Origin: Maylandia zebra
Taxonomy: Eukaryota > Chordata > Actinopteri > Cichliformes > Cichlidae
DNA length: 64,000 nt
Assembly (NCBI RefSeq): GCF_041146795.1
Contig: NC_135175.1
Coordinates: 33,108,136-33,172,135, forward strand
Direction: 5' to 3'
How positions within the stretch are numbered: position 1 is the stretch's first letter; each line of letters begins with the position of its first letter. Shown here piece by piece: positions 18,066-64,000 of the stretch. A program made the position numbers and the translations under genes. The notes under the pieces are model-generated. The model ran no database searches and had not been told where the DNA came from. It saw nothing but the letters and a program-made list of their open reading frames with translations.

Positions 18066-21000
18066 TCATGCGAGCGTGATTTCCCTGTGCGGATATGAAT
18101 GAAACGCTGTACCGGTGTCCAGCACTGGGGGCCAGTTCCTGATGTCCATCGTGGCCATGGCCTCTTTGGAGCGCAGCAGCTTACAGATGACGGCGGTGGT
18201 CATCACACACGCCGAGTGACTCACCTGCACAATTAGAAAGAGAAAGACAGAAGAAGAAATTAAGCTCCCCTTTTTCCCCAGAGGAGATCAGAAGTCATTC
18301 AGAGCCATACGAGTCTGCAATTAGCTGGGAGCGAGAGCTTGAGCCCTGGAGGTCTGACTGAAAGAGAAACCGCATCGGTTTAACAGACAAATTAAGAGTC
18401 TCACCTCTGACCTCTTAACAGTGGGCAGGGTGGTGGAGATGTTCTGAGGGTGAGGCGGTCCTGTGTGGTCTGAGCTCTCCACTGCAAACCTCGGACAGGA
18501 ACAGAAACTGCAAGACAGACATAAACACTTCTTTTACACACACTTTGATGGCCTAACCTCTGTGTTTTTTACATTCATGTGTTTACGTGTGATGTACATG
18601 ACTATTGTGCATCTGGCTCAGTGTTTGATATTGTAAAGCAAAGTCAATAACAGCAAAAATTTAATATTTTACTTTTTATTTCTGTCGCCCTCCTGCATCA
18701 ATCCCAGAATCACCCACACCCTTTACCACATTTGCTTACTTTAGAGACTCCAGACACCAGGAAGTGGGAGAAATTTCTCTTATAATAAGATACGGTAATC
18801 TTTCTGACAATAGGTGAGATTGCTTTTAAATATGGAAACGGGGATAGTCACAAGAAGTTTGAGAGGCACAACTCAGACAGAAGAGCAGACAGAGAAAAGC
18901 CATGTGGATAGGAGCTACTCTCCCGAGCTAAGGTTAGCCACAGAGGGCATGGATGCAGACGAGCCCAGCCTCCTGAACATCCCGAAAGAGCTTCGTGACT
19001 TTAGGAAACACAACAACAAACAATATGCACATATTAGACGAGGGTTAAGAAGAGTTGATGCTAGAATGGAAGAAGCAGAGGGGCGATTCGACGAGACTGA
19101 GACGGTGCTACAGTTGTTTATTTTATTCATAAACTTCACTATTTCATTAATTATTTCATGGTTTCTTTGCATCTTCATCTGTAACCTTTTTTGCGCCACG
19201 GACCGGTTTATGCCCGACAATATTTTCACGGACCGGCCTTTAAGGTGTCACGGATAAATACAACAAAATAAAACTAGTACCGGTACCGAAAAAAAGAAGA
19301 TTTATTCATAACACACGTGAAAAGACCCAGGAAAACCGAGTTAACGACCAAAACGATAACAAAATAACGCTGAAAACCGATAAAAACCTTGAAAACCATA
19401 CATTTCACACCTGAGACTCTACTCTCGCGGCCCGGTACCAAACGACTCACGGACCGGTACTGGTCCGAGGCCCGGGGGTTGGGGACCGCTGATCTGTAGC
19501 ACTTACACATCGGTGTATGTTCCTTGTGTTTGCTTACATTAAAATACCAGCACTAATGACCAGAGCATACAAATGCAGCTTTTCATATTTGACAATATAT
19601 TTTGAAAGCACAAGACAAATCACAAACAGTTTTCAATGTAGGTTTGGTTTTTTATTTTGTTTTATTTTTCAGTTCTTGATTTGATGGTGATGTGATGCTA
19701 TATTACATGTTTTTAAGATTCAGCTGAATTTAATATTTGTAATATAGCATCGAATCACAACCGTCTCCTCAAGTTGCTTTATACTGTAAGATAGAGACCC
19801 TACAGTAGCAGCAAGAAAACCCCAAATATTAATAATCCCTTATGAGCAAGCACTTGGCGACAGTGGGGAGGAAAAACTACCTGTAACAGGCAGAAACCTC
19901 CGGCAGAACCAGGCTCAGAAGGGACGGCCATCTGCCTCGGCCGGTGGGGGGTGATGGTAACGATAATACGAGGAGACACGATGAAGAATATTTCTCAGTC
20001 TAATTAAAGTCGAATGAAATAGTTTTAAAATAAAATATACCTCAGATGTTAACTCTGAGGCCAGACTGCTTTAAGATTTTAAAAGAGGTATTTGAAAAAA
20101 ATCAAGATGACAATTTAGTCATCAGTACTGCCTTTAAAGCAGCAGCTGAACGGCTTCTTCAAAGCTTTTAACACTGCTGAAAAAACCTGGCAAGTTTGGA
20201 TTTCTTTGGAGGATTCACGAAGCCACCGAGATTCTTTCTTATGATCTTCCTAATAATGTTGTCAAAAGATGAATCTTCTGACAACATTACATCGAAGAGC
20301 TTGTCTGCAGATCCAAACTCCTTGATAAGACCTTCAGCTGTGGCCTTGACTAATTCAACCCTGTTAATTTTAAGAATTTCCAGGTTTTCTGTGCATCTCA
20401 CTTCAGAAAGTACCAAATCTATCAGATGGTTGATAGCCAAGTCTAATTTCTTTGGATCCAGAAGATTTCTGGTATTTTTGTGCAAATTTTGTGCGATTCT
20501 TGTGGCTAGAAGAGTACTAAATTGATTGGCAATGAGCTTAGCGTGAATTGACACTGATGTTTCTGACAGCTCTTCCTCTGGGTTTTCAGAGGTTGCTGGC
20601 TGACTTTGACCCTCTGTGGGGTCAGTGTCAGAGACTGATGCCTGATCACTGCTTGTATTTGAAACCAGGTCCGGGTCTTCTGCACTCACACAAACTGGCT
20701 GATTGGTGAGATCAGTAACTGGACTTGACTGTGATGTAAACAGTCTGTCGCTTGTTTCACCAGCATCTGCTCCAATCATAACTTCTTCCTTTGATGGGGT
20801 CAGCACTCTTACTATATCTTCCACGGCACCAGAAATTTTGTCATTTATAATAGTTTGGGTTAAAGTTTCATTCTCCAACCAGAAAAGAAGGTTTTGTAAG
20901 AACCTTTCCACTGAATCTTCTATGAGCACATAGGCCACATCAGGAGCAGAGGGTACATTACAGTTACCCTGTGAAGTCTTAGAGAAGTCAGACTCTGAGA

Positions 21001-22685
21001 GACTTTTACCCATTTGCATCGTGGGGGCTAAATATGTTGACTCGACATGGTCGTACACTTTATCTGTCAACACCATTGAAAACATCTTGATTTCCTTACT
21101 TGTCAGGTCAAGGTGTCCTGCCGAGAATAATTTACTAAACAGCCTATTCATAAGTGGCATAAATTGACTGAAGTTGAGCGGAGAAGAACTTTTAACTGTG
21201 GTTTCTAAGGTTGGTGATTTTCTGGGAACTTCTGAGGGATTCATGTGTTCGCTTTTCCTGGAGTCAGCTCTTTCACTCTCAGGGGAGGTTGCCTGTTGTC
21301 TCTGAAAGGTCAAAAATCCTTTGCTTTTCTTCAAATGATCTTTCAGCTCACTGTTCATTTTTTCAAATTCTATTTTAGCAAACCTGAAGAAGTGTTGTTT
21401 TACTTCATCTGGTTTTATAATTAGGGCGCATGATGCAAAAAAGTCTTTCACCTTTTTGATCACCAGGTCCACGTCAAAAGCAGGCTTGGGTGAGCTACAC
21501 TTCTCACTTAATGTGATATCTTCTGCATCAGGATACTGAATGTTTGCAATTAACACATTTACAATGTCAACTGCAGCTTTATCTGCATGATCTTCATCAT
21601 GTAAATAATTCAGATTGTTGAGGATTCTTTCAACATCCCTTTGAGCTTTCTCCTCAGCTTCTTTAATTGTTCCCATCTCAGAGAGCTTGGATTCAAGACT
21701 CTCATCACTTGAACTAAAAGAAGTGGGTAAAGCCCCCCTCATGCACAGGCCGCTCAGCTTACCTTTATATTTCTTCAGACATGAGAAAGCATGAGAAACC
21801 ATGCATCTGAGGTTTTTTATGTTTGTTATTTTTCTGGTGACATAAATAGAATCCGGGTTTTCTGGGACTAGAACCCAACCCGAGTTGACTTTATTTGAGA
21901 TCTCCTCCTCAATCATCTGTGTCAGCGCCACAGCGCTTTCACACTCCTCATGGGTGACATGAAGAGCAGCAGCAAAGCTGGTTGAGAGAGAGTCTCCCAA
22001 TACGGGGCTTATTTTTGTCACGGCTAACCTAAGGTATGTCTGGGATGATGCATCATTTAATTGGTCCTGACCTCCTAGAAGTAACGTTTTTATGGTGCTT
22101 GCACTAACTGACTGAATGACATCAGTAATCATATCAGCCAGTGCTACTTGGACATCAGAGTCCCAGATCCCATTTTCTATCAAGCGCCACTGTAATCCAG
22201 AGAGCCTATCGAAACACCCGCTGATAGCAGGTGAAATCGCCTCTGAAGTAATGCGGGTAGGGATTCTAATATTGAATAAAGACATTGTCAATGACCTAAT
22301 TTCGCTACAATTACTTTGGAAATCCGTTTTCAGAAAGCTTTCAGAAAGGGAAGATCGCGGTCTGTACATTTAACGCACGACAACTAAAATGCAAAATGCA
22401 AGATTCAGGTCCCGCTGTTTCACCCCTATTTATAGACTCGAGTGGAGGTCACGTGCTGCAAGATCAAAGGCACGTACTGTGACATCAAAGCAGAAAGGAA
22501 CTGAGCTGTGTGACGTCATGCCGCGAGCGTTCACCTACATGCACGTGCACACGTGAGCGATCACTAATAAATCACAGACGCATCAACGTCGGTGTTGTCA
22601 AACTTTCAATCATACCTGCAGCCAGTTCTTTGAAGCTCTCAAATGGGTTGAATGGCGGCTGTTTTCCACCATCATCGCAGAGCAT
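18066..22685 (-). CDS. Candidate small three-exon gene (predicted 101 aa), host of the nested 733-codon ORF
   Basis: Not recognised. Minus-strand exons 22685-22616 (ATG start), 18481-18405 and 18224-18066 (TGA stop) join with matching phases. Donors are GTATG and GTGAGA; acceptors are GTTTGCAG and a strong CTTTCTCTTTCTAATTGTGCAG-type site (pyrimidine tract then AG). The protein starts MLCDDGGKQPPFNPFESFKE, has a middle Ser/Thr/Pro part, then SACVMTTAVICKLLRSKEAM and ends HREITLA. An in-frame TAG lies upstream of the ATG in the same exon. A palindromic RFX-type site sits about 260 bases upstream. Intron 1 holds the 733-codon ORF on the same strand plus a MITE and an L1 fragment. An alternative donor at 18112 could skip the last codons. 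The joins are inferred from sequence only. Confidence 0.5.
18832..19113 (+). mobile_element. L1-type ORF1 N-terminal fragment (unit 1)
   Basis: 94 open codons ending in a charged coiled-coil-like stretch (IPKELRDFRKHNNKQY, then RVDARMEEAEGRFDETETVL). This resembles the start of ORF1 in fish L1/Tx1 elements. The homology stops after the coiled coil, and the frame then runs into a hydrophobic, probably fortuitous, tail and the MITE. Confidence 0.55.
19184..19491. mobile_element. hAT-like MITE lacking its left 13 bases (unit 1)
   Basis: The right end GGGGACCGCTG and the right target duplication ATCTGTAG are intact. The left terminal repeat is gone, so the sequence goes straight from CTGTA to ACCTTTTTTGCGCC. 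Confidence 0.85.
19651..19666 (-). terminator. Candidate poly(A) signals for the 733-codon ORF (unit 1)
   Basis: Two AATAAA words on the minus strand (19661-19666 and 19651-19656), about 500 bases after the ORF stop. Equivalent sites are present in every unit. Confidence 0.3.
19691..19758. repeat. 68-base imperfect palindrome (unit 1)
   Basis: The left arm GATGCTATATTACA and its exact complement TGTAATATAGCATC are joined by a second self-complementary core centred on ATTCAGCTGAAT. The transcript of either strand could form a long hairpin. It is conserved in all units, except that units 4-6 carry C for T in the loop-proximal T run. Confidence 0.7.
20168..22369 (-). CDS. Uncharacterised intronless 733-aa protein, copy 1
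   Basis: I do not recognise the family. The single frame runs from ATG 22367-22369 to the stop at 20168. The protein looks mostly helical, with repeated amphipathic segments (for example LMNRLFSKLFSAGHLDL at 406-422, VLIEDSVERFLQNLLFWLEN at 481-500). Two Ser/Thr/Glu-rich linkers lie at about 360-400 and 535-605, and the C-terminus is basic (PPKKSKLARFFQQC). There is no signal peptide, membrane span, zinc-binding motif or transposase/RT motif. The first ATG has T at -3; Met29 has A at -3 and could be an alternative start. A TATA box lies about 60 bases upstream. Copy-specific residues: T41, A44, I45, L447 and, unique to this copy, I650. Lack of introns suggests a retrocopy or a TE-derived gene, but no poly(A) trace is evident. 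Confidence 0.7.
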   Translation of the reverse strand: MYRPRSSLSESFLKTDFQSNCSEIRSLTMSLFNIRIPTRITSEAISPAISGCFDRLSGLQWRLIENGIWDSDVQVALADMITDVIQSVSASTIKTLLLGGQDQLNDASSQTYLRLAVTKISPVLGDSLSTSFAAALHVTHEECESAVALTQMIEEEISNKVNSGWVLVPENPDSIYVTRKITNIKNLRCMVSHAFSCLKKYKGKLSGLCMRGALPTSFSSSDESLESKLSEMGTIKEAEEKAQRDVERILNNLNYLHDEDHADKAAVDIVNVLIANIQYPDAEDITLSEKCSSPKPAFDVDLVIKKVKDFFASCALIIKPDEVKQHFFRFAKIEFEKMNSELKDHLKKSKGFLTFQRQQATSPESERADSRKSEHMNPSEVPRKSPTLETTVKSSSPLNFSQFMPLMNRLFSKLFSAGHLDLTSKEIKMFSMVLTDKVYDHVESTYLAPTMQMGKSLSESDFSKTSQGNCNVPSAPDVAYVLIEDSVERFLQNLLFWLENETLTQTIINDKISGAVEDIVRVLTPSKEEVMIGADAGETSDRLFTSQSSPVTDLTNQPVCVSAEDPDLVSNTSSDQASVSDTDPTEGQSQPATSENPEEELSETSVSIHAKLIANQFSTLLATRIAQNLHKNTRNLLDPKKLDLAINHLIDLVLSEVRCTENLEILKINRVELVKATAEGLIKEFGSADKLFDVMLSEDSSFDNIIRKIIRKNLGGFVNPPKKSKLARFFQQC
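22427..22555 (-). promoter_or_regulatory. Compact promoter of the 733-codon ORF: TATA, E-boxes, CRE (unit 1)
   Basis: On the minus strand TATAAATAG is at 22427-22435, 58 bases before the ATG. Upstream are CACGTG E-boxes at 22450-22455, 22542-22547 and 22550-22555, and a perfect palindromic CRE TGACGTCA at 22511-22518. CRE-driven promoters are typical of cAMP-responsive and of CREM-controlled germ-cell genes. The tissue is inference. Confidence 0.65.
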
Positions 22686-22943
22686 TCCTCCAGCAGGTCC
22701 AACGCCTGATTCAACAAAACCCGCGACTCCGGCAGCTGTGCTCCGAAGCAGTTTGCTAATGTGATGCTAACTAGCTAATGTGATGCTAACTAGCTAAAGA
22801 ATCCTAACAGGTACTTAAAAAACAAAGGGGACGAAGGAGGAGGAGGAGAAGTGGAGACAGCGACCTGACTGACTGGTTCATCTGAGGCTCTCAGTGGTTC
22901 CCTGTCTCAGCGAGATTCACAACACTTCTTGCAACAAACTCCC

Positions 22944-22957
22944 GTAACCATGGTTAC
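22944..22957. promoter_or_regulatory. Palindromic RFX X-box-like site (unit 1)
   Basis: GTAACCATGGTTAC is a perfect palindrome of two GTNRCC half-sites with 2-base spacing, the geometry RFX dimers prefer. It lies about 260 bases upstream of the ATG of the candidate 101-aa gene and 575 bases upstream of the 733-codon ORF. Confidence 0.45.
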
Positions 22958-23057
22958 AGGAGGACGCTCTGTTTGTGGCAGTCATTATCACAGTATGACT
23001 CACAAAGAGACGTTAATAAATATTAATTCATGCAATTTAAACACATTTTTTATTTTA

Positions 23058-23990
23058 CTAATGAGGTGTATAATGGTTTAATATGGCACGACACCCTCGC
23101 TGATGTTGATGCCTAGGAATCTGAAGCAGCTGACTCTCCACCTCTGCTACTGCTGCTCTCCTGTAACCCACGATGAGCTCCTTGGTTTTGTTGATGTTAA
23201 GCACCAGGTTGTTGTCACGGCACCGTGATGTCACGCCCCTCACCTCTGTCCTGCATGACGTCTCATCTCCATCAGAAATGCATTCAATGAGAAGATTAGA
23301 CTTTATTGATCGACGGCAGGAAAATTTGTGTGTTACCTCAGCTCAGGTAGAGATAGCAGAAGAAAATCCAAAAATCCAAATAAAATATAAACAACTACAA
23401 AATAAATAAGATAATACACTATATACAACAGTAGCATACACAGTATGTGACTATGGATAGAGTGTTGTGGAAATGCAAGAAATACATTTAATTATTCTTA
23501 CATTACTATTACTATTTAAGCAATAGATATCTAAAAGTATCTATAAGTATAGACATGTACTTGCACACACATCTACACACTAAATATACACATGTATACA
23601 TATACATACACATATACCTGCACACCAGGTAAATGTCCAGTGACTCATGACAGCGTGATTGAGGAGTTATAGAGTCTAACTGCTGTTGGGATCAATGATC
23701 TGTGAAAGCGCTCCTTCCTGCAGTGAGGCTGTTTTGGTCTCTGACAAGGATCTGCTCAGCTCACAGACTCATGCAGAGGATGATGTGGGTTGTTCGTGAT
23801 GGATGTCAGCTTTACTAGCATTTTTAGCACACGATCAAAGTTTCTGTGGATGCTTGAAAAATCTTGAAGAACGTTGAATTCACTGAAGGTTTTAAAAATA
23901 ATGCTGTAATCAGTTTCGTTACAGTTGCAGTGTTGTCTTCTGCTACTGTAGGCCACAGCAGCAGCAGACGACAACACAGGTTGAGTAAGT
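23058..23990 (-). mobile_element. Fragments of a Rex1/L2-type LINE (unit 1)
   Basis: Minus-strand RT pieces. One is CRDNNLVLNINKTKELIVGY at 23243-23058, continuing after a frameshift with FRFLGINIS. The other is the C-terminal end NNPHHPLHES, then KERFHRSLIPTAVRLYNSS and a stop, at about 23830-23650, followed by 3' UTR-like sequence. All are broken. They separate the shared promoter region from the next unit to the right. Confidence 0.7.
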
Positions 23991-25174
23991 GGGAGTGGGT
24001 GTTTTCAGACACAGAAGAACAACTTTAGATTAATCAAATAAAAATGTATTCAGTCAGCTTTCCAAATGTGAATGTTTCAGTTGTCTGTGAGTAGGAACTC
24101 AACTCTAATAAACTATAAGTTTATTTAACTATAAAAATAGTATGCTTGTTTGCAAAACGTGATGTGCTTCTGCATCTTCACAGAGTTTCTCTCAGTTTGT
24201 GGTCGAGAGTCCTCCAAATGTAAGCATCGAACCAGAGCTAGAATTTGGCTGCTTAATCTTTATTTCACTTCCTGGATGCTGTTTCTGTTTTCCATCAGGG
24301 TCGTTCTCATGCTTTCTATTCTGATGTAAAGTAACTGGAGGAAAGCAGCTCCCCAGAACAACGATTTGTCTCCAGACATTGGCCACCTCCACCATAGCAG
24401 ATAACCAGGAGTGCTCCAAGGATCAGGAAACACTGGGGACTTGAAAAAAATGCAAAAATTATTTCAGATTAAAGTTAATATAAAACGTCAAACACTGTGT
24501 GCTTCCTAGTCAGTGAGATTTAAATTTGATCCCTCTTTGTTTATTGTATGTTGTATGTTTATTATTAAATAAACATGCACAATTAGAAAGAGAAAGACAG
24601 AAGAAGAAATTAAGCTCCCCTTTTTCCCCAGAGGAGATCAGAAGTCATTCAGAGCCATACGAGTCTGCAATTAGCTGGGAGCGAGAGCTTGAGCCCTGGA
24701 GGTCTGACTGAAAGAGAAACCGCATCGGTTTAACAGACAAATTAAGAGTCTGACCTCTTAACAGTGGGCAGGGTGGTGGAGATGTTCTGAGGGTGAGGCG
24801 GTCCTGTGTGGTCTGAGCTCTCCACTGCAAACCTCGGACAGGAACAGAAACTGCAAGACAGACATAAACACTTCTTTTACACACACTTTGATGGCCTAAC
24901 CTCTGTGTTTTTTACATTCATGTGTTTACGTGTGATGTACATGACTATTGTGCATCTGGCTCAGTGTTTGATATTGTAAAGCAAAGTCAATAACAGCAAA
25001 AATTTAATATTTTACTTTTTATTTCTGTCGCCCTCCTGCATCAATCCCAGAATCACCCACACCCTTTACCACATTTGCTTACTTTAGAGACTCCAGACAC
25101 CAGGAAGTGGGAGAAATTTCTCTTATAATAAGATACGGTAATCTTTCTGACAATAGGTGAGATTGCTTTTAAAT

Positions 25175-25456
25175 ATGGAAACGGGGATAGTCACAAGAAG
25201 TTTGAGAGGCACAACTCAGACAGAAGAGCAGACAGAGAAAAGCCATGTGGATAGGAGCTACTCTCCCGAGCTAAGGTTAGCCACAGAGGGCATGGATGCA
25301 GACGAGCCCAGCCTCCTGAACATCCCGAAAGAGCTTCGTGACTTTAGGAAACACAACAACAAACAATATGCACATATTAGACGAGGGTTAAGAAGAGTTG
25401 ATGCTAGAATGGAAGAAGCAGAGGGGCGATTCGACGAGACTGAGACGGTGCTACAG
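25175..25456 (+). mobile_element. L1-type ORF1 fragment (unit 2)
   Basis: Identical in reading to the unit 1 copy; the frame again runs into the MITE. Confidence 0.55.
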
Positions 25457-25526
25457 TTGTTTATTTTATTCATAAACTTCACTATTTCATTAATTATTTC
25501 ATGGTTTCTTTGCATCTTCATCTGTA

Positions 25527-25834
25527 ACCTTTTTTGCGCCACGGACCGGTTTATGCCCGACAATATTTTCACGGACCGGCCTTTAAGGTGTCACGGATAA
25601 ATACAACAAAATAAAACTAGTACCGGTACCGAAAAAAAGAAGATTTATTCATAACACATGTGAAAAGACCCAGGAAAACCGAGTTAACGACCAAAACGAT
25701 AACAAAATAACGCTGAAAACCGATAAAAACCTTGAAAACCATACATTTCACACCTGAGACTCTACTCTCGCGGCCCGGTACCAAACGACTCACGGACCGG
25801 TACTGGTCCGAGGCCCGGGGGTTGGGGACCGCTG
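25527..25834. mobile_element. hAT-like MITE lacking its left 13 bases (unit 2)
   Basis: Same deletion breakpoint as unit 1, so the loss happened once and was copied with the unit. Confidence 0.85.
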
Positions 25835-26510
25835 ATCTGTAGCACTTACACATCGGTGTATGTTCCTTGTGTTTGCTTACATTAAAATACCAGCACTAAT
25901 GACCAGAGCATACAAATGCAGCTTTTCATATTTGACAATATATTTTGAAAGCACAAGACAAATCACAAACAGTTTTCAATGTAGGTTTGGTTTTTTATTT
26001 TGTTTTATTTTTCAGTTCTTGATTTGATGGTGATGTGATGCTATATTACATGTTTTTAAGATTCAGCTGAATTTAATATTTGTAATATAGCATCGAATCA
26101 CAACCGTCTCCTCAAGTTGCTTTATACTGTAAGATAGAGACCCTACAGTAGCAGCAAGAAAACCCCAAATATTAATAATCCCTTATGAGCAAGCACTTGG
26201 CGACAGTGGGGAGGAAAAACTACCTGTAACAGGCAGAAACCTCCGGCAGAACCAGGCTCAGAAGGGACGGCCATCTGCCTCGGCCGGTGGGGGGTGATGG
26301 TAACGATAATACGAGGAGACACGATGAAGAATATTTCTCAGTCTAATTAAAGTCGAATGAAATAGTTTTAAAATAAAATATACCTCAGATGTTAACTCTG
26401 AGGCCAGACTGCTTTAAGATTTTAAAAGAGGTATTTGAAAAAAATCAAGATGACAATTTAGTCATCAGTACTGCCTTTAAAGCAGCAGCTGAACGGCTTC
26501 TTCAAAGCTT

Positions 26511-28712
26511 TTAACACTGCTGAAAAAACCTGGCAAGTTTGGATTTCTTTGGAGGATTCACGAAGCCACCGAGATTCTTTCTTATGATCTTCCTAATAAT
26601 GTTGTCAAAAGATGAATCTTCTGACAACATTACATCGAAGAGCTTGTCTGCAGATCCAAACTCCTTGATAAGACCTTCAGCTGTGGCCTTGACTAATTCA
26701 ACCCTGTTAATTTTAAGAATTTCCAGGTTTTCTGTGCATCTCACTTCAGAAAGTACCAAATCTGTCAGATGGTTGATAGCCAAGTCTAATTTCTTTGGAT
26801 CCAGAAGATTTCTGGTATTTTTGTGCAAATTTTGTGCGATTCTTGTGGCTAGAAGAGTACTAAATTGATTGGCAATGAGCTTAGCGTGAATTGACACTGA
26901 TGTTTCTGACAGCTCTTCCTCTGGGTTTTCAGAGGTTGCTGGCTGACTTTGACCCTCTGTGGGGTCAGTGTCAGAGACTGATGCCTGATCACTGCTTGTA
27001 TTTGAAACCAGGTCCGGGTCTTCTGCACTCACACAAACTGGCTGATTGGTGAGATCAGTAACTGGACTTGACTGTGATGTAAACAGTCTGTCGCTTGTTT
27101 CACCAGCATCTGCTCCAATCATAACTTCTTCCTTTGATGGGGTCAGCACTCTTACTATATCTTCCACGGCACCAGAAATTTTGTCATTTATAATAGTTTG
27201 GGTTAAAGTTTCATTCTCCAACCAGAAAAGAAGGTTTTGTAAGAACCTTTCCACTGAATCTTCTATGAGCACATAGGCCACATCAGGAGCAGAGGGTACA
27301 TTACAGTTACCCTGTGAAGTCTTAGAGAAGTCAGACTCTGAGAGACTTTTACCCATTTGCATCGTGGGGGCTGGATATGTTGACTCGACATGGTCGTACA
27401 CTTTATCTGTCAACACCATTGAAAACATCTTGATTTCCTTACTTGTCAGGTCAAGGTGTCCTGCCGAGAATAATTTACTAAACAGCCTATTCATAAGTGG
27501 CATAAATTGACTGAAGTTGAGCGGAGAAGAACTTTTAACTGTGGTTTCTAAGGTTGGTGATTTTCTGGGAACTTCTGAGGGATTCATGTGTTCGCTTTTC
27601 CTGGAGTCAGCTCTTTCACTCTCAGGGGAGGTTGCCTGTTGTCTCTGAAAGGTCAAAAATCCTTTGCTTTTCTTCAAATGATCTTTCAGCTCACTGTTCA
27701 TTTTTTCAAATTCTATTTTAGCAAACCTGAAGAAGTGTTGTTTTACTTCATCTGGTTTTATAATTAGGGCGCATGATGCAAAAAAGTCTTTCACCTTTTT
27801 GATCACCAGGTCCACGTCAAAAGCAGGCTTGGGTGAGCTACACTTCTCACTTAATGTGATATCTTCTGCATCAGGATACTGAATGTTTGCAATTAACACA
27901 TTTACAATGTCAACTGCAGCTTTATCTGCATGATCTTCATCATGTAAATAATTCAGATTGTTGAGGATTCTTTCAACATCCCTTTGAGCTTTCTCCTCAG
28001 CTTCTTTAATTGTTCCCATCTCAGAGAGCTTGGATTCAAGACTCTCATCACTTGAACTAAAGGAAGTGGGTAAAGCCCCCCTCATGCACAGGCCGCTCAG
28101 CTTACCTTTATATTTCTTCAGACATGAGAAAGCATGAGAAACCATGCATCTGAGGTTTTTTATGTTTGTTATTTTTCTGGTGACATAAATAGAATCCGGG
28201 TTTTCTGGGACTAGAACCCAACCCGAGTTGACTTTATTTGAGATCTCCTCCTCAATCATCTGTGTCAGCGCCACAGCGCTTTCACACTCCTCATGGGTGA
28301 CATGAAGAGCAGCAGCAAAGCTGGTTGAGAGAGAGTCTCCCAATACGGGGCTTATTTTTGTCACGGCTAACCTAAGGTATGTCTGGGATGATGCATCATT
28401 TAATTGGTCCTGACCTCCTAGAAGTAACGTTTTTATGGTGCTTGCACTAACTGACTGAATGACATCAGTAATCATATCAGCCAGTGCTACTTGGACATCA
28501 GAGTCCCAGATCCCATTTTCTATCAAGCGCCACTGTAATCCAGAGAGCCTATCGAAACACCCGCTGATAGCAGGTGAAAAAGGCTCTGAATTAATGCGGG
28601 TAGGGATTCTAATATTGAATAAAGACATTGTCAATGACCTAATTTCGCTACAATTACTTTGGAAATCCGTTTTCAGAAAGCTTTCAGAAAGGGAAGATCG
28701 CGGTCTGTACAT
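26511..28712 (-). CDS. Uncharacterised 733-aa protein, copy 2
   Basis: Intact full-length frame. It differs from copy 1 at residues 41-45 (NSEPF instead of TSEAI), P447 for L and T650 for I. The 41-45 change is a block of neighbouring substitutions shared only with copy 3, which looks more like conversion or one local event than separate point mutations. Confidence 0.7.
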   Translation of the reverse strand: MYRPRSSLSESFLKTDFQSNCSEIRSLTMSLFNIRIPTRINSEPFSPAISGCFDRLSGLQWRLIENGIWDSDVQVALADMITDVIQSVSASTIKTLLLGGQDQLNDASSQTYLRLAVTKISPVLGDSLSTSFAAALHVTHEECESAVALTQMIEEEISNKVNSGWVLVPENPDSIYVTRKITNIKNLRCMVSHAFSCLKKYKGKLSGLCMRGALPTSFSSSDESLESKLSEMGTIKEAEEKAQRDVERILNNLNYLHDEDHADKAAVDIVNVLIANIQYPDAEDITLSEKCSSPKPAFDVDLVIKKVKDFFASCALIIKPDEVKQHFFRFAKIEFEKMNSELKDHLKKSKGFLTFQRQQATSPESERADSRKSEHMNPSEVPRKSPTLETTVKSSSPLNFSQFMPLMNRLFSKLFSAGHLDLTSKEIKMFSMVLTDKVYDHVESTYPAPTMQMGKSLSESDFSKTSQGNCNVPSAPDVAYVLIEDSVERFLQNLLFWLENETLTQTIINDKISGAVEDIVRVLTPSKEEVMIGADAGETSDRLFTSQSSPVTDLTNQPVCVSAEDPDLVSNTSSDQASVSDTDPTEGQSQPATSENPEEELSETSVSIHAKLIANQFSTLLATRIAQNLHKNTRNLLDPKKLDLAINHLTDLVLSEVRCTENLEILKINRVELVKATAEGLIKEFGSADKLFDVMLSEDSSFDNIIRKIIRKNLGGFVNPPKKSKLARFFQQC

Positions 28713-28769
28713 TTAACGCACGACAACTAAAATGCAAAATGCAAGATTCAGGTCCCGCTGTTTCACCCC

Positions 28770-28898
28770 TATTTATAGACTCGAGTGGAGGTCACGTGCT
28801 GCAAGATCAAAGGCACGTACTGTGACATCAAAGCAGAAAGGAACTGAGCTGTGTGACGTCATGCCGCGAGCGTTCACCTACATGCACGTGCACACGTG
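28770..28898 (-). promoter_or_regulatory. TATA, E-box and CRE promoter (unit 2)
   Basis: TATA at 28770-28778 and CRE TGACGTCA at 28854-28861, in the same spacing as unit 1 with no change in the motifs. Confidence 0.6.
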
Positions 28899-28958
28899 AG
28901 CGATCACTAATAAATCACAGACGCATCAACGTCGGTGTTGTCAAACTTTCAATCATAC

Positions 28959-29028
28959 CTGCAGCCAGTTCTTTGAAGCTCTCAAATGGGTTGAATGGCG
29001 GCTGTTTTCCACCATCATCGCAGAGCAT
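28959..29028 (-). pseudogene. Duplicate first exon of the 101-aa candidate gene (unit 2)
   Basis: The ATG exon and its GTATG donor are intact, but the downstream exon 2 of this unit lacks its normal donor and no exon 3 follows within the unit. A transcript from here would have to splice past the neighbouring unit, so the copy is probably non-coding. The same state holds for the exon copies at 35315-35384, 41671-41740, 48027-48096 and 58286-58355. Confidence 0.5.
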
Positions 29029-52555: not shown

Positions 52556-52586
<31 letters not shown>

Positions 52587-52635
52587 GAAACGGAGCAGAT
52601 ACAATAGGGCCTTCGCACTCTCGGTGCTCGGGCCC

Positions 52636-52671
<36 letters not shown>

Positions 52672-54491: not shown

Positions 54492-54773
54492 ATGGAAACG
54501 GGGATAGTCACAAGAAGTTTGAGAGGCACAACTCAGACAGAAGAGCAGACAGAGAAAAGCCATGTGGATAGGAGCTACTCTCCCGAGCTAAGGTTAGCCA
54601 CAGAGGGCATGGATGCAGACGAGCCCAGCCTCCTGAACATCCCGAAAGAGCTTCGTGACTTTAGGAAACACAACAACAAACAATATGCACATATTAGACG
54701 AGGGTTAAGAAGAGTTGATGCTAGAATGGAAGAAGCAGAGGGGCGATTCGACGAGACTGAGACGGTGCTACAG
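54492..54773 (+). mobile_element. L1-type ORF1 fragment (unit 6)
   Basis: Same as unit 3. Confidence 0.55.
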
Positions 54774-54844
54774 TTGTTTATTTTATTCATAAACTTCACT
54801 ATTTCATTAATTATTTCATGGTTTCTTTGCATCTTCATCTGTAG

Positions 54845-55164
54845 CAGCGGTCTCCAACCTTTTTTGCGCCACGGACCGGTTTATGCCCGACAATATTTTC
54901 ACGGACCGGCCTTTAAGGTGTCACGGATAAATACAACAAAATAAAACTAGTACCGGTACCGAAAAAAAGAAGATTTATTCATAACACACGTGAAAAGACC
55001 CAGGAAAACCGAGTTAACGACCAAAACGATAACAAAATAACGCTGAAAACCGATAAAAACCTTGAAAACCATACATTTCACACCTGAGACTCTACTCTCG
55101 CGGCCCGGTACCAAACGACTCACGGACCGGTACTGGTCCGAGGCCCGGGGGTTGGGGACCGCTG
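54845..55164. mobile_element. Complete hAT-like MITE (unit 6)
   Basis: Both ends and both target copies present. This is the rightmost unit with an intact left end. Confidence 0.9.
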
Positions 55165-55840
55165 ATCTGTAGCACTTACACATCGGTGTATGTTCCTTGT
55201 GTTTGCTTACATTAAAATACCAGCACTAATGACCAGAGCATACAAATGCAGCTTTTCATATTTGACAATATATTTTGAAAGCACAAGACAAATCACAAAC
55301 AGTTTTCAATGTAGGTTTGGTTTTTTATTTTGTTTTATTTTTCAGTTCTTGATTTGATGGTGATGTGATGCTATATTACATGTTTCTAAGATTCAGCTGA
55401 ATTTAATATTTGTAATATAGCATCGAATCACAACCGTCTCCTCAAGTTGCTTTATACTGTAAGATGGAGACCCTACAGTAGCAGCAAGAAAACCCCAAAT
55501 ATTAATAATCCCTTATGAGCAAGCACTTGGCGACAGTGGGGAGGAAAAACTACCTGTAACAGGCAGAAACCTCCGGCAGAACCAGGCTCAGAAGGGACGG
55601 CCATCTGCCTCGGCCGGTGGGGGGTGATGGTAACGATAATACGAGGAGACACGATGAAGAATATTTCTCAGTCTAATTAAAGTCGAATGAAATAGTTTTA
55701 AAATAAAATATACCTCAGATGTTAACTCTGAGGCCAGACTGCTTTAAGATTTTAAAAGAGGTATTTGAAAAAAATCAAGATGACAATTTAGTCATCAGTA
55801 CTGCCTTTAAAGCAGCAGCTGAACGGCTTCTTCAAAGCTT

Positions 55841-58039
55841 TTAACACTGCTGAAAAAACCTGGCAAGTTTGGATTTCTTTGGAGGATTCACGAAGCCACC
55901 GAGATTCTTTCTTATGATCTTCCTAATAATGTTGTCAAAAGATGAATCTTCTGACAACATTACATCGAAGAGCTTGTCTGCAGATCCAAACTCCTTGATA
56001 AGACCTTCAGCTGTGGCCTTGACTAATTCAACCCTGTTAATTTTAAGAATTTCCAGGTTTTCTGTGCATCTCACTTCAGAAAGTACCAAATCTGTCAGAT
56101 GGTTGATAGCCAAGTCTAATTTCTTTGGATCCAGAAGATTTCTGGTATTTTTGTGCAAATTTTGTGCGATTCTTGTGGCTAGAAGAGTACTAAATTGATT
56201 GGCAATGAGCTTAGCGTGAATTGACACTGATGTTTCTGACAGCTCTTCCTCTGGGTTTTCAGAGGTTGCTGGCTGACTTTGACCCTCTGTGGGGTCAGTG
56301 TCAGAGACTGATGCCTGATCACTGCTTGTATTTGAAACCAGGTCCGGGTCTTCTGCACTCACACAAACTGGCTGATTGGTGAGATCAGTAACTGGACTTG
56401 ACTGTGATGTAAACAGTCTGTCGCTTGTTTCACCAGCATCTGCTCCAATCATAACTTCTTCCTTTGATGGGGTCAGCACTCTTACTATATCTTCCACGGC
56501 ACCAGAAATTTTGTCATTTATAATAGTTTGGGTTAAAGTTTCATTCTCCAACCAGAAAAGAAGGTTTTGTAAGAACCTTTCCACTGAATCTTCTATGAGC
56601 ACATAGGCCACATCAGGAGCAGAGGGTACATTACAGTTACCCTGTGAAGTCTTAGAGAAGTCAGACTCTGAGAGACTTTTACCCATTTGCATCGTGGGGG
56701 CTAAATATGTTGACTCGACATGGTCGTACACTTTATCTGTCAACACCATTGAAAACATCTTGATTTCCTTACTTGTCAGGTCAAGGTGTCCTGCCGAGAA
56801 TAATTTACTAAACAGCCTATTCATAAGTGGCATAAATTGACTGAAGTTGAGCGGAGAAGAACTTTTAACTGTGGTTTCTAAGGTTGGTGATTTTCTGGGA
56901 ACTTCTGAGGGATTCATGTGTTCGCTTTTCCTGGAGTCAGCTCTTTCACTCTCAGGGGAGGTTGCCTGTTGTCTCTGAAAGGTCAAAAATCCTTTGCTTT
57001 TCTTCAAATGATCTTTCAGCTCACTGTTCATTTTTTCAAATTCTATTTTAGCAAACCTGAAGAAGTGTTGTTTTACTTCATCTGGTTTTATAATTAGGGC
57101 GCATGATGCAAAAAAGTCTTTCACCTTTTTGATCACCAGGTCCACGTCAAAAGCAGGCTTGGGTGAGCTACACTTCTCACTTAATGTGATATCTTCTGCA
57201 TCAGGATACTGAATGTTTGCAATTAACACATTTACAATGTCAACTGCAGCTTTATCTGCATGATCTTCATCATGTAAATAATTCAGATTGTTGAGGATTC
57301 TTTCAACATCCCTTTGAGCTTTCTCCTCAGCTTCTTTAATTGTTCCCATCTCAGAGAGCTTGGATTCAAGACTCTCATCACTTGAACTAAAAGAAGTGGG
57401 TAAAGCCCCCCTCATGCACAGGCCGCTCAGCTTACCTTTATATTTCTTCAGACATGAGAAAGCATGAGAAACCATGCATCTGAGGTTTTTTATGTTTGTT
57501 ATTTTTCTGGTGACATAAATAGAATCCGGGTTTTCTGGGACTAGAACCCAACCCGAGTTGACTTTATTTGAGATCTCCTCCTCAATCATCTGTGTCAGCG
57601 CCACAGCGCTTTCACACTCCTCATGGGTGACATGAAGAGCAGCAGCAAAGCTGGTTGAGAGAGAGTCTCCCAATACGGGGCTTATTTTTGTCACGGCTAT
57701 CCTAAGGTATGTCTGGGATGCATCATTTAATTGGTCCTGACCTCCTAGAAGTAACGTTTTTATGGTGCTTGCACTAACTGACTGAATGACATCAGTAATC
57801 ATATCAGCCAGTGCTACTTGGACATCAGAGTCCCAGATCCCATTTTCTATCAAGCGCCACTGTAATCCAGAGAGCCTATCGAAACACCCGCTGATAGCAG
57901 GTGAAATCGCCTCTGAAGTAATGCGGGTAGGGATTCTAATATTGAATAAAGACATTGTCAATGACCTAATTTCGCTACAATTACTTTGGAAATCCGTTTT
58001 CAGAAAGCTTTCAGAAAGGGAAGATCGCGGTCTGTACAT
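55841..58039 (-). CDS. Uncharacterised protein, copy 6 (732 aa)
   Basis: Intact frame despite a 3-base loss: one of the two serines in NDASSQ (108-109) is missing and the nearby Leu is Ile (TYLRIAV). TSEAI block, L447, T650. This is the most diverged copy, and its change keeps the frame. Confidence 0.7.
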   Translation of the reverse strand: MYRPRSSLSESFLKTDFQSNCSEIRSLTMSLFNIRIPTRITSEAISPAISGCFDRLSGLQWRLIENGIWDSDVQVALADMITDVIQSVSASTIKTLLLGGQDQLNDASQTYLRIAVTKISPVLGDSLSTSFAAALHVTHEECESAVALTQMIEEEISNKVNSGWVLVPENPDSIYVTRKITNIKNLRCMVSHAFSCLKKYKGKLSGLCMRGALPTSFSSSDESLESKLSEMGTIKEAEEKAQRDVERILNNLNYLHDEDHADKAAVDIVNVLIANIQYPDAEDITLSEKCSSPKPAFDVDLVIKKVKDFFASCALIIKPDEVKQHFFRFAKIEFEKMNSELKDHLKKSKGFLTFQRQQATSPESERADSRKSEHMNPSEVPRKSPTLETTVKSSSPLNFSQFMPLMNRLFSKLFSAGHLDLTSKEIKMFSMVLTDKVYDHVESTYLAPTMQMGKSLSESDFSKTSQGNCNVPSAPDVAYVLIEDSVERFLQNLLFWLENETLTQTIINDKISGAVEDIVRVLTPSKEEVMIGADAGETSDRLFTSQSSPVTDLTNQPVCVSAEDPDLVSNTSSDQASVSDTDPTEGQSQPATSENPEEELSETSVSIHAKLIANQFSTLLATRIAQNLHKNTRNLLDPKKLDLAINHLTDLVLSEVRCTENLEILKINRVELVKATAEGLIKEFGSADKLFDVMLSEDSSFDNIIRKIIRKNLGGFVNPPKKSKLARFFQQC

Positions 58040-58096
58040 TTAACGCACGACAACTAAAATGCAAAATGCAAGATTCAGGTCCCGCTGTTTCACCCC

Positions 58097-58225
58097 TATT
58101 TATAGACTCGAGTGGAGGTCACGTGCTGCAAGATCAAAGGCACGTACTGTGACATCAAAGCAGAAAGGAACTGAGCTGTGTGACGTCATGCCGCGAGCGT
58201 TCACCTACATGCACGTGCACACGTG
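58097..58225 (-). promoter_or_regulatory. TATA, E-box and CRE promoter (unit 6)
   Basis: TATA at 58097-58105; motifs unchanged. Confidence 0.6.
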
Positions 58226-58708
58226 AGCGATCACTAATAAATCACAGACGCATCAACGTCGGTGTTGTCAAACTTTCAATCATACCTGCAGCCAGTTCTT
58301 TGAAGCTCTCAAATGGGTTGAATGGCGGCTGTTTTCCACCATCATCGCAGAGCATTCCTCCAGCAGGTCCAACGCCTGATTCAACAAAACCCGCGACTCC
58401 GGCAGCTGTGCTCCGAAGCAGTTTGCTAATGTGATGCTAACTAGCTAAAGAATCCTAACAGGTACTTAAAAAACAAAGGGGGCGAAGGAGGAGGAGGAGA
58501 AGTGGAGACAGCGACCTGACTGACTGGTTCATCTGAGGCTCTCAGTGGTTCCCTGTCTCAGCGAGATTCACAACACTTCTTGCAACAAACTCCCGTAACC
58601 ATGGTTACAGGAGGACGCTCTGTTTGTGGCAGTCATTATCACAGTATGACTCACAAAGAGACGTTAATAAATATTAATTCATGCAATTTAAACACATTTT
58701 TTATTTTA

Positions 58709-59641
58709 CTAATGAGGTGTATAATGGTTTAATATGGCACGACACCCTCGCTGATGTTGATGCCTAGGAATCTGAAGCAGCTGACTCTCCACCTCTGCTA
58801 CTGCTGCTCTCCTGTAACCCACGATGAGCTCCTTGGTTTTGTTGATGTTAAGCACCAGGTTGTTGTCACGGCACCGTGATGTCACGCCCCTCACCTCTGT
58901 CCTGCATGACGTCTCATCTCCATCAGAAATGCATTCAATGAGAAGATTAGACTTTATTGATCGACGGCAGGAAAATTTGTGTGTTACCTCAGCTCAGGTA
59001 GAGATAGCAGAAGAAAATCCAAAAATCCAAATAAAATATAAACAACTACAAAATAAATAAGATAATACACTATATACAACAGTAGCATACACAGTATGTG
59101 ACTATGGATAGAGTGTTGTGGAAATGCAAGAAATACATTTAATTATTCTTACATTACTATTACTATTTAAGCAATAGATATCTAAAAGTATCTATAAGTA
59201 TAGACATGTACTTGCACACACATCTACACACTAAATATACACATGTATACATATACATACACATATACCTGCACACCAGGTAAATGTCCAGTGACTCATG
59301 ACAGCGTGATTGAGGAGTTATAGAGTCTAACTGCTGTTGGGATCAATGATCTGTGAAAGCGCTCCTTCCTGCAGTGAGGCTGTTTTGGTCTCTGACAAGG
59401 ATCTGCTCAGCTCACAGACTCATGCAGAGGATGATGTGGGTTGTTCGTGATGGATGTCAGCTTTACTAGCATTTTTAGCACACGATCAAAGTTTCTGTGG
59501 ATGCTTGAAAAATCTTGAAGAACGTTGAATTCACTGAAGGTTTTAAAAATAATGCTGTAATCAGTTTCGTTACAGTTGCAGTGTTGTCTTCTGCTACTGT
59601 AGGCCACAGCAGCAGCAGACGACAACACAGGTTGAGTAAGT
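58709..59641 (-). mobile_element. Rex1/L2-type LINE fragments (unit 6)
   Basis: Same broken RT pieces as unit 1. Confidence 0.65.
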
Positions 59642-60825
59642 GGGAGTGGGTGTTTTCAGACACAGAAGAACAACTTTAGATTAATCAAATAAAAATGTAT
59701 TCAGTCAGCTTTCCAAATGTGAATGTTTCAGTTGTCTGTGAGTAGGAACTCAACTCTAATAAACTATAAGTTTATTTAACTATAAAAATAGTATGCTTGT
59801 TTGCAAAACGTGATGTGCTTCTGCATCTTCACAGAGTTTCTCTCAGTTTGTGGTCGAGAGTCCTCCAAATGTAAGCATCGAACCAGAGCTAGAATTTGGC
59901 TGCTTAATCTTTATTTCACTTCCTGGATGCTGTTTCTGTTTTCCATCAGGGTCGTTCTCATGCTTTCTATTCTGATGTAAAGTAACTGGAGGAAAGCAGC
60001 TCCCCAGAACAACGATTTGTCTCCAGACATTGGCCACCTCCACCATAGCAGATAACCAGGAGTGCTCCAAGGATCAGGAAACACTGGGGACTTGAAAAAA
60101 ATGCAAAAATTATTTCAGATTAAAGTTAATATAAAACGTCAAACACTGTGTGCTTCCTAGTCAGTGAGATTTAAATTTGATCCCTCTTTGTTTATTGTAT
60201 GTTGTATGTTTATTATTAAATAAACATGCACAATTAGAAAGAGAAAGACAGAAGAAGAAATTAAGCTCCCCTTTTTCCCCAGAGGAGATCAGAAGTCAGC
60301 CAGAGCCATACGAGTCTGCAATTAGCTGGGAGCGAGAGCTTGAGCCCTGGAGGTCTGACTGAAAGAGAAACCGCATCGGTTTAACAGACAAATTAAGAGT
60401 CTGACCTCTTAACAGTGGACAGGGTGGTGGAGATGTTCTGAGGGTGAGGCGGTCCTGTGTGGTCTGAGCTCTCCACTGCAAACCTCGGACAGGAACAGAA
60501 ACTGCAAGACAGACATAAACACTTCTTTTACACACACTTTGATGGCCTAACCTCTGTGTTTTTTACATTCATGTGTTTACGTGTGATGTACATGACTATT
60601 GTGCATCTGGCTCAGTGTTTGATATTGTAAAGCAAAGTCAATAACAGCAAAAATTTAATATTTTACTTTTTATTTCTGTCGCCCTCCTGCATCAATCCCA
60701 GAATCACCCACACCCTTTACCACATTTGCTTACTTTAGAGACTCCAGACACCAGGAAGTGGGAGAAATTTCTCTTATAATAAGATACGGTAATCTTTCTG
60801 ACAATAGGTGAGATTGCTTTTAAAT

Positions 60826-61107
60826 ATGGAAACGGGGATAGTCACAAGAAGTTTGAGAGGCACAACTCAGACAGAAGAGCAGACAGAGAAAAGCCATGTG
60901 GATAGGAGCTACTCTCCCGAGCTAAGGTTAGCCACAGAGGGCATGGATGCAGACGAGCCCAGCCTCCTGAACATCCCGAAAGAGCTTCGTGACTTTAGGA
61001 AACACAACAACAAACAATATGCACATATTAGACGAGGGTTAAGAAGAGTTGATGCTAGAATGGAAGAAGCAGAGGGGCGATTCGACGAGACTGAGACGGT
61101 GCTACAG
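60826..61107 (+). mobile_element. L1-type ORF1 fragment (unit 7)
   Basis: Same as unit 1. Confidence 0.55.
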
Positions 61108-61177
61108 TTGTTTATTTTATTCATAAACTTCACTATTTCATTAATTATTTCATGGTTTCTTTGCATCTTCATCTGTA

Positions 61178-61485
61178 ACCTTTTTTGCGCCACGGACCGG
61201 TTTATGCCCGACAATATTTTCACGGACCGGCCTTTAAGGTGTCACGGATAAATACAACAAAATAAAACTAGTACCGGTACCGAAAAAAAGAAGATTTATT
61301 CATAACACACGTGAAAAGACCCAGGAAAACCGAGTTAACGACCAAAACGATAACAAAATAACGCTGAAAACCGATAAAAACCTTGAAAACCATACATTTC
61401 ACACCTGAGACTCTACTCTCGCGGCCCGGTACCAAACGACTCACGGACCGGTACTGGTCCGAGGCCCGGGGGTTGGGGACCGCTG
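61178..61485. mobile_element. hAT-like MITE lacking its left 13 bases (unit 7)
   Basis: Same breakpoint as units 1 and 2, although four units with the complete element lie between. Confidence 0.85.
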
Positions 61486-62161
61486 ATCTGTAGCACTTAC
61501 ACATCGGTGTATGTTCCTTGTGTTTGCTTACATTAAAATACCAGCACTAATGACCAGAGCATACAAATGCAGCTTTTCATATTTGACAATATATTTTGAA
61601 AGCACAAGACAAATCACAAACAGTTTTCAATGTAGGTTTGGTTTTTTATTTTGTTTTATTTTTCAGTTCTTGATTTGATGGTGATGTGATGCTATATTAC
61701 ATGTTTTTAAGATTCAGCTGAATTTAATATTTGTAATATAGCATCGAATCACAACCGTCTCCTCAAGTTGCTTTATACTGTAAGATAGAGACCCTACAGT
61801 AGCAGCAAGAAAACCCCAAATATTAATAATCCCTTATGAGCAAGCACTTGGCGACAGTGGGGAGGAAAAACTACCTGTAACAGGCAGAAACCTCCGGCAG
61901 AACCAGGCTCAGAAGGGACGGCCATCTGCCTCGGCCGGTGGGGGGTGATGGTAACGATAATACGAGGAGACACGATGAAGAATATTTCTCAGTCTAATTA
62001 AAGTCGAATGAAATAGTTTTAAAATAAAATATACCTCAGATGTTAACTCTGAGGCCAGACTGCTTTAAGATTTTAAAAGAGGTATTTGAAAAAAATCAAG
62101 ATGACAATTTAGTCATCAGTACTGCCTTTAAAGCAGCAGCTGAACGGCTTCTTCAAAGCTT

Positions 62162-64000
62162 TTAACACTGCTGAAAAAACCTGGCAAGCTTGGATTTCTT
62201 TGGAGGATTCACGAAGCCACCGAGATTCTTTCTTATGATCTTCCTAATAATGTTGTCAAAAGATGAATCTTCTGACAACATTACATCGAAGAGCTTGTCT
62301 GCAGATCCAAACTCCTTGATAAGACCTTCAGCTGTGGCCTTGACTAATTCAACCCTGTTAATTTTAAGAATTTCCAGGTTTTCTGTGCATCTCACTTCAG
62401 AAAGTACCAAATCTGTCAGATGGTTGATAGCCAAGTCTAATTTCTTTGGATCCAGAAGATTTCTGGTATTTTTGTGCAAATTTTGTGCGATTCTTGTGGC
62501 TAGAAGAGTACTAAATTGATTGGCAATGAGCTTAGCGTGAATTGACACTGATGTTTCTGACAGCTCTTCCTCTGGGTTTTCAGAGGTTGCTGGCTGACTT
62601 TGACCCTCTGTGGGGTCAGTGTCAGAGACTGATGCCTGATCACTGCTTGTATTTGAAACCAGGTCCGGGTCTTCTGCACTCACACAAACTGGCTGATTGG
62701 TGAGATCAGTAACTGGACTTGACTGTGATGTAAACAGTCTGTCGCTTGTTTCACCAGCATCTGCTCCAATCATAACTTCTTCCTTTGATGGGGTCAGCAC
62801 TCTTACTATATCTTCCACGGCACCAGAAATTTTGTCATTTATAATAGTTTGGGTTAAAGTTTCATTCTCCAACCAGAAAAGAAGGTTTTGTAAGAACCTT
62901 TCCACTGAATCTTCTATGAGCACATAGGCCACATCAGGAGCAGAGGGTACATTACAGTTACCCTGTGAAGTCTTAGAGAAGTCAGACTCTGAGAGACTTT
63001 TACCCATTTGCATCGTGGGGGCTAAATATGTTGACTCGACATGGTCGTACACTTTATCTGTCAACACCATTGAAAACATCTTGATTTCCTTACTTGTCAG
63101 GTCAAGGTGTCCTGCCGAGAATAATTTACTAAACAGCCTATTCATAAGTGGCATAAATTGACTGAAGTTGAGCGGAGAAGAACTTTTAACTGTGGTTTCT
63201 AAGGTTGGTGATTTTCTGGGAACTTCTGAGGGATTCATGTGTTCGCTTTTCCTGGAGTCAGCTCTTTCACTCTCAGGGGAGGTTGCCTGTTGTCTCTGAA
63301 AGGTCAAAAATCCTTTGCTTTTCTTCAAATGATCTTTCAGCTCACTGTTCATTTTTTCAAATTCTATTTTAGCAAACCTGAAGAAGTGTTGTTTTACTTC
63401 ATCTGGTTTTATAATTAGGGCGCATGATGCAAAAAAGTCTTTCACCTTTTTGATCACCAGGTCCACGTCAAAAGCAGGCTTGGGTGAGCTACACTTCTCA
63501 CTTAATGTGATATCTTCTGCATCAGGATACTGAATGTTTGCAATTAACACATTTACAATGTCAACTGCAGCTTTATCTGCATGATCTTCATCATGTAAAT
63601 AATTCAGATTGTTGAGGATTCTTTCAACATCCCTTTGAGCTTTCTCCTCAGCTTCTTTAATTGTTCCCATCTCAGAGAGCTTGGATTCAAGACTCTCATC
63701 ACTTGAACTAAAGGAAGTGGGTAAAGCCCCCCTCATGCACAGGCCGCTCAGCTTACCTTTATATTTCTTCAGACATGAGAAAGCATGAGAAACCATGCAT
63801 CTGAGGTTTTTTATGTTTGTTATTTTTCTGGTGACATAAATAGAATCCGGGTTTTCTGGGACTAGAACCCAACCCGAGTTGACTTTATTTGAGATCTCCT
63901 CCTCAATCATCTGTGTCAGCGCCACAGCGCTTTCACACTCCTCATGGGTGACATGAAGAGCAGCAGCAAAGCTGGTTGAGAGAGAGTCTCCCAATACGGG
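62162..64000 (-). CDS. Uncharacterised 733-aa protein, copy 7 (N-terminus outside the window)
   Basis: Residues 122-733 are present and open; the first 121 codons lie beyond the right edge. L447 and T650. A silent change (AAGCTT at about 62188) is private to this copy. Confidence 0.7.
   Translation of the reverse strand, partial: PVLGDSLSTSFAAALHVTHEECESAVALTQMIEEEISNKVNSGWVLVPENPDSIYVTRKITNIKNLRCMVSHAFSCLKKYKGKLSGLCMRGALPTSFSSSDESLESKLSEMGTIKEAEEKAQRDVERILNNLNYLHDEDHADKAAVDIVNVLIANIQYPDAEDITLSEKCSSPKPAFDVDLVIKKVKDFFASCALIIKPDEVKQHFFRFAKIEFEKMNSELKDHLKKSKGFLTFQRQQATSPESERADSRKSEHMNPSEVPRKSPTLETTVKSSSPLNFSQFMPLMNRLFSKLFSAGHLDLTSKEIKMFSMVLTDKVYDHVESTYLAPTMQMGKSLSESDFSKTSQGNCNVPSAPDVAYVLIEDSVERFLQNLLFWLENETLTQTIINDKISGAVEDIVRVLTPSKEEVMIGADAGETSDRLFTSQSSPVTDLTNQPVCVSAEDPDLVSNTSSDQASVSDTDPTEGQSQPATSENPEEELSETSVSIHAKLIANQFSTLLATRIAQNLHKNTRNLLDPKKLDLAINHLTDLVLSEVRCTENLEILKINRVELVKATAEGLIKEFGSADKLFDVMLSEDSSFDNIIRKIIRKNLGGFVNPPKKSKLARFFQQC

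Follow-up and report, generated by a model that had tools for sequence, protein, structure and literature searches.

A 64,000-nucleotide stretch of the genome of the cichlid Maylandia zebra (assembly GCF_041146795.1, 962 Mb in 63 contigs), located at C9:33108136-33172135 (contig NC_135175.1) and referred to here as the window, carries a tandem array of seven head-to-tail units of about 6.35 kb each, all in a single orientation, as found by self-comparison, junction sequences and a seven-unit alignment. The commonest offset between repeated 30-mers within the window is 6356 bp, and BLAST of the window against itself gave direct matches of 99.4-99.8% identity from position 18223 to the window end and confirmed the tandem direct repeats. 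The seven unit starts and the common orientation proposed in a first-pass annotation of this DNA are borne out, with the onset of homology lying 3 bases before the first of them. The units were delimited by self-BLAST, unit alignment and junctions (unit 7 by self-BLAST and unit alignment), and the open reading frames (ORFs) by ORF calls; the strand of each unit is that of its ORF:

18226..24575, minus strand, unit 1
24576..30918, minus strand, unit 2
30919..37274, minus strand, unit 3, the reference unit
37275..43630, minus strand, unit 4
43631..53892, minus strand, unit 5, with a 3906-bp insert
53893..60226, minus strand, unit 6
60227..64000, minus strand, unit 7, cut by the window edge
20168..22369, minus strand, short ORF of unit 1, 733 aa
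26511..28712, minus strand, short ORF of unit 2, 733 aa
32867..35068, minus strand, short ORF of unit 3, 733 aa (P0001)
39223..41424, minus strand, short ORF of unit 4, 733 aa
45579..47780, minus strand, short ORF of unit 5, 733 aa
55841..58039, minus strand, short ORF of unit 6, 732 aa
62162..64000, minus strand, short ORF of unit 7, cut at the edge, its full 732 aa being read from locus L015

The extent of 18226..64000 first assigned to the array holds inside the window but not at 64000, as the array goes on beyond this point with five longer relatives to the right. Unit homology stops only at C9:33229295, which gives an array of about 103 kb with 12 genes, seven short and five long; the stretches at ~33.174-33.184 and ~33.190-33.199 Mb, between or within the long part, enter this count as partial matches with their letters unread. 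The window is free of any N, and scans of it with Rfam (gathering scores) and for tRNAs gave no match.

Each array copy of the unit contains one open single-exon ORF (7/7 short, 5/5 long). In order rightward the long frames measure 1350, 1208, 1351, 1351 and 1351 aa, the last three being spaced 8150 bp apart, and carry toward the C-terminus a ~141-aa domain in four to five copies (four were read out in L018) before ending in a basic tail, a similar tail being found in the aligned relatives with the exception of one cut member. The short form has a single copy of this domain and a truncated tail, which results from the loss of one base in a T run close to the 3' end, a change common to all seven short ORFs. 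The description of the ORFs as intact is therefore correct in so far as the frames are open in every unit, but not for the tails of the seven short ones. Units 2 and 3 encode identical proteins, as do units 4 and 5.

In the seven-unit alignment 18 columns are variable, in addition to indels of 3, 7, 13 and 19 bp and the one large insert in unit 5, and three unit pairs compared interval by interval differ by 6 to 12 substitutions over ~6.3 kb. The earlier statement that non-coding parts are as similar as coding parts roughly applies among the seven short units, where the 2.2-kb ORF has 10 variable columns and the other 4.15 kb have 8, but clearly not between short and long ones: between unit 3 and the last long unit there are 33 differences in 2387 sites at unit positions 2001-4400, nearly all of which is ORF, and only 7 in 3947 sites elsewhere, the corresponding numbers of differences for unit 1 being 41 and 5. 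The likeliest interpretation of this pattern is that units exchange their flanking DNA while the coding cassette would have a separate history.

Moreover, when informative sites of the seven units are taken in pairs, 23 of the 66 fail the four-gamete test, some of these sites being neighbours and not independent. Since one tree would not yield such failures unless sites recombined or mutated repeatedly, exchange between units is, at the level of the sequence, demonstrated. Together with the few substitutions per pair and the likeness of short and long units in their non-coding DNA, this agrees with the first-pass proposal of an array that is very young or actively homogenised.

Two further features of the unit, given here for the copy in unit 3, accompany the ORF:

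35120..35260, minus strand, upstream block, a putative promoter (motif reading)
32445..32659, minus strand, repeat-type element downstream of the stop, common to relatives on C11, C15, C1 and C20

Relative to the ATG, the upstream block comprises two CACGTG motifs, TGACGTCA at -149, CTTTGATC at -100, a third CACGTG at -86 and TATAAATA at -65, of which we take TGACGTCA to be a cAMP response element (CRE) and CTTTGATC a TCF/LEF-type site. When nine upstream regions were compared (C9, C20, C18, C15, C1a, C11a, C19a, C6 and C9:12.36 Mb), CTTTGATC or its complement was found in all nine, as was a TATA-like box, numbers that were reached by at most 1.7% and at most 3% of shuffles, respectively, and TGACGT or its complement occurred in eight (absent from C6). 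Among 2520 control windows (overlapping, 250 bp, from flanking DNA), CTTTGATC was present in 5, a CRE half-site in 209 and a TATA-like box in 180, and the combination of CTTTGATC with TGACGT in none. As neutral sites would be near saturation at a synonymous divergence (dS) of ~1 or above, the retention of these motifs among C9, C20, C15 and C11 argues for function. The idea that the whole promoter was amplified with the gene is thus upheld for a putative promoter, the upstream block of each unit having TATA-like, CRE-like and CTTTGATC motifs, which are kept in distant relatives as well.

An RFX-type X-box was also considered as a family motif, and a search of 13 upstream stretches by regular expression found no match to it. 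The palindrome GTAACCATGGTTAC is present in the unit and was located separately, and nothing is built on it here. Upstream of the promoter block, at 35320-35384 on the minus strand, lies an exon-like reading of about 23 codons that starts with ATG and ends at a GT donor-like site, and which is also found at C9:12.36 Mb. An upstream block of ~430 bp was at first read as a captured host exon, which it may or may not be, the other copy at C9:12.36 Mb being itself family-derived.

The array belongs to a family that is widely distributed in this genome. A protein search with P0001 found relatives, among the matches listed, on C1, C6, C9, C11, C15, C18, C19 and C20, and a second protein query added C3, C7 and C17, so that the family is present on at least 11 chromosomes. 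On C20 (3.979-4.011 Mb) it forms a second array of 8 genes of 821 aa in units of 3.93 kb, with 10 variable columns across 7 full units, and on C17 there are at least 5 family matches over 35 kb (search matches, their sequence being unread). Dispersed copies reside on C15 (four), C1 and C11, some of them in segments of at least 9 kb that are 98-99% alike. Large repeated segments common to C1 (39.9-41.3 Mb) and C11 (37.0-37.8 Mb) each include a family ORF with internal repeats of the SPDQSPKSGS type. At four loci on C15 and C1 (L039, L040, L041 and L046), family ORFs are convergent with a 299-aa ORF that to us looks like a fish NACHT/NLR exon.

Open frames are kept in all 12 genes on C9 and all 8 on C20, and internal stops are found in copies on C6, C11:8.09 Mb, C3, C7 and C19. 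In a tree of 29 coding sequences the C9 and the C20 genes form separate clades with full support each; the sequences had been selected as open, i.e., without internal stop, the locus ends cut four of the five long C9 genes short, C17 is left out, and the program warns of long branches joining at the root. An intron-bearing parent gene was sought via the two protein searches, in which introns were not modelled, and among the matches listed there were only long single-frame copies and decayed pieces.

With respect to selection, six deep-branch comparisons gave dS values of 0.37-1.43 and ratios of nonsynonymous to synonymous divergence (dN/dS) of 0.42-0.58, and Fisher tests on four of the six, based on estimated counts, gave p values of 1e-6 to 8e-14. 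Given these ratios and p values, the ORFs of the family are, as judged from their codons, proteins that have been constrained in the past and evolve fast.

The identity of the protein was addressed by searches of Pfam, PHROGs, PDB, phage records, viral contigs and prokaryote genomes, a set that includes no fish genome collection, and no convincing relative was found. PDB profile matches (a leucine-rich repeat (LRR) protein, E 0.0009; coronavirus spike pieces, E 0.0045 and above) were short and low-scoring and were rejected, as were the weak and scattered Pfam matches to SLT_4 in 7 of 11 members (best E 0.029), Phage_connect_1 in 4 (0.009), DUF4716 in one (0.0024), Matrix_Filo in one (0.0026) and ZapG-like in two (0.016; under the curated cut-off in P0001), others being weaker still. 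Pfam presumably includes an FSIP2-like family model, and a likeness to this sperm fibrous-sheath protein was discarded as no such model appeared among the matches of the 11 members up to E 5. Comparison of four blocks of the array protein with each other showed no convincing homology. A single-sequence AlphaFold model of P0001 had a mean pLDDT of 34.9 and a pTM of 0.22; helices are all that it suggests, and no fold search was based on it. The protein is probably helical. A literature search, mainly of titles and abstract openings, retrieved no paper recognised as describing the family.

In kind, the array may be compared to coding macrosatellites. RS447/USP17L and D4Z4/DUX4 are macrosatellites in which units of a few kilobases, each with an intron-free ORF, are arranged head-to-tail, and which are polymorphic in copy number in humans; the present array has the same general plan, but the proteins differ. 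Another analogue is the ELOA3 retrogene cluster of primates, which consists of near-identical tandem units of kilobase size with one coding exon each, 12 of them in one human assembly, that are homogenised by concerted evolution and are under modest purifying selection (PMC10664989). Near-identical kilobase units, a single coding exon and homogenisation are common to both. However, ELOA3 is a recognisable homolog of Elongin A, whereas the array protein is without relative in the libraries searched, and, unlike ELOA3, its family forms several arrays in one genome and two coding forms within one array. In fish, a multicopy, testis-expressed gene for an SGNH hydrolase has been described in the platyfish as captured by a Helitron (PMC4021074); it resembles the array in being multicopy but encodes a different protein and is carried by an element, whereas the array consists of head-to-tail units with no element ends seen.

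Taken together, the locus is likely to be a young gene-bearing tandem array of the coding macrosatellite type, formed by a fast-evolving single-exon family, in which units exchange sequence and for which dosage would be the likeliest use. Each unit appears to be a complete transcription unit made up of a compact upstream block, one ORF and the common 3' element, so that two coding forms, short and long, would stand behind one regulatory frame. Unequal crossing-over and gene conversion might be the engine that keeps the units alike, and many near-identical intron-free genes could allow for a fast burst of one protein. Use in germ cells or in the early embryo, to which only the gene plan and the promoter motifs point, is a possibility that we put forward tentatively and with some doubt. 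That three chromosomes carry amplified sets raises the plausibility of selection without pointing to a tissue, and the separate multiplication of family members on other chromosomes hints at repeated selection on copy number. Several equally young arrays of one family in one genome could show, as an experiment of nature, whether selection acts on copy number itself. No counterpart of the protein was found in the libraries searched, but constraint and the upstream motif layout are kept across deep divergence, so that expression data alone could place it.

A number of observations weigh against the reading as a dosage-selected array. The short ORFs lack the tail of their relatives, which could mean lost function, and in the short C9 units and the C20 array the changes are too few for a test of selection. 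In some recent pairs dN/dS exceeds 1 (C11b-C1d, 3.2, with 22 versus 2 changes; C1c-C1d, 2.9; C9L_16-C9L_17, 2.5), which may reflect selection that was relaxed or altered, or else errors in stretches rich in repeats. The upstream motifs were picked after the sequence had been read and the regions compared are related, CRE half-sites exceed shuffles at 5% in only five of the nine, and two of the nine (C18 and C6) precede broken ORFs. Finally, several copies of the family are decayed.

A rival explanation is neutral amplification, i.e., arrays in recombination-prone DNA that grow and shrink by unequal exchange, their copy number being without benefit. We regard this as rather unlikely, albeit with appreciable weight: selection leaves no readable trace inside arrays this young, C1 and C11 often carry large segmental copies, and decayed copies exist. 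However, tandem sets of one family on three chromosomes and the open frames of 12 C9 and 8 C20 genes speak against it, although neither excludes drift.

A family engaged in immunity or conflict, whose protein diversifies against pathogens or germ-line elements and whose truncated short forms oppose the long ones, is an unlikely but arguable explanation. It would accommodate the fast protein change seen in deep and in some recent comparisons, the presence of long and truncated forms side by side, and the ORFs next to C15 and C1 copies that look like fish NACHT/NLR exons. On the other hand, no known immune or toxin domain was found in Pfam, nothing indicates an interaction between the two forms, and the near-identity of the units argues for dosage over diversity.

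Two other loci point to a wider circle of genes. On C15, at ~23.979 Mb, a single-exon ORF of 453 aa (L050, 5466-6824) is accompanied by clustered TGACGT, a TATATATAG box and the 3' element of the family, without CTTTGATC; in BLAST and phmmer comparisons with four family members, and in a profile search, its protein gave nothing significant. At C9:12358500-12359900 (L054), the upstream DNA of the C9 unit, with its promoter block, leads into another coding body. The end of this body matches the protein of L050 (32% over 103 aa; one sequence compared, E 1e-14) and shows no match to the family members. An exchange of cassettes behind one promoter is possible at L054, and the common promoter that would tie the L050/L054 subfamily to the array family is a lead, not proof. 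Extrapolated further, one might imagine a vertebrate superfamily of single-exon genes, marked by gene plan more than by sequence (clustered CRE sites with a TATA-like box, a helical body, a basic tail and the 3' element) and held in continual genetic conflict, which re-amplifies at new sites, swaps cassettes behind a constant promoter and pits long against truncated forms as a germ-line driver/suppressor or dosage-war system; this we consider speculative and quite improbable.

Still less probable is the spread of a mobile-element or integrated-virus gene that was then tandemly repeated. Single-exon ORFs scattered over at least 11 chromosomes and a repeat-type 3' element common to the branches would fit, but no convincing viral or phage relative was found in Pfam, PHROGs, the phage records or the viral contigs, an inspection of the outer array junctions by eye showed neither terminal repeats nor a target-site duplication, and copies travel with upstream DNA in segments of at least 9 kb. 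An assembly artefact in which one or two true units were written several times, of which the first pass had made the array a partial product and which the identical proteins of units 2/3 and 4/5 might suggest, is not favoured and is similarly remote, given single-nucleotide differences, indels and a 3.9-kb insert in mosaic order across distinct units, structurally different long units, a second array on C20 with differences of its own, and an assembly of few contigs without gaps in the window.

Two insertions lie within the units:

48816..52722 (ends approximate; 48812-52733 at the widest), no strand assigned, insert in unit 5 (self-BLAST, unit alignment, junctions)
31871..32190, minus strand, 320-bp inverted-repeat insertion with an 8-bp flanking duplication, unit 3 copy

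The insert of unit 5 contains a direct duplication of 1.89 kb, the copies of which are 94.7% alike and end in AAT-repeat tails that look retroposon-like by eye. The 320-bp insertion, which we assume to be of the type of a hAT miniature inverted-repeat transposable element, is older than the amplification, because no unit shows a gap of that size at this position; a gap of 13 bp is present at its edge in units 1, 2 and 7.

Pieces of LRR genes flank the array on both sides (Pfam LRR_6 on the left; by eye on both), which in our opinion resemble LRRC34 on the left and LRRC31 on the right. Also to the left of the array, an ORF of 566 aa at 11997-13697 on the minus strand matches RVT_1 (E 1.1e-13) and, weakly and below cut-off, zf-RVT, and by these matches is a remnant of a non-LTR (long terminal repeat) retrotransposon. 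Finally, the segments 15956-16264 and 17396-17704 form an inverted duplicate of 309 bp with 97% identity, which includes part of an LRR exon of the left flanking gene.

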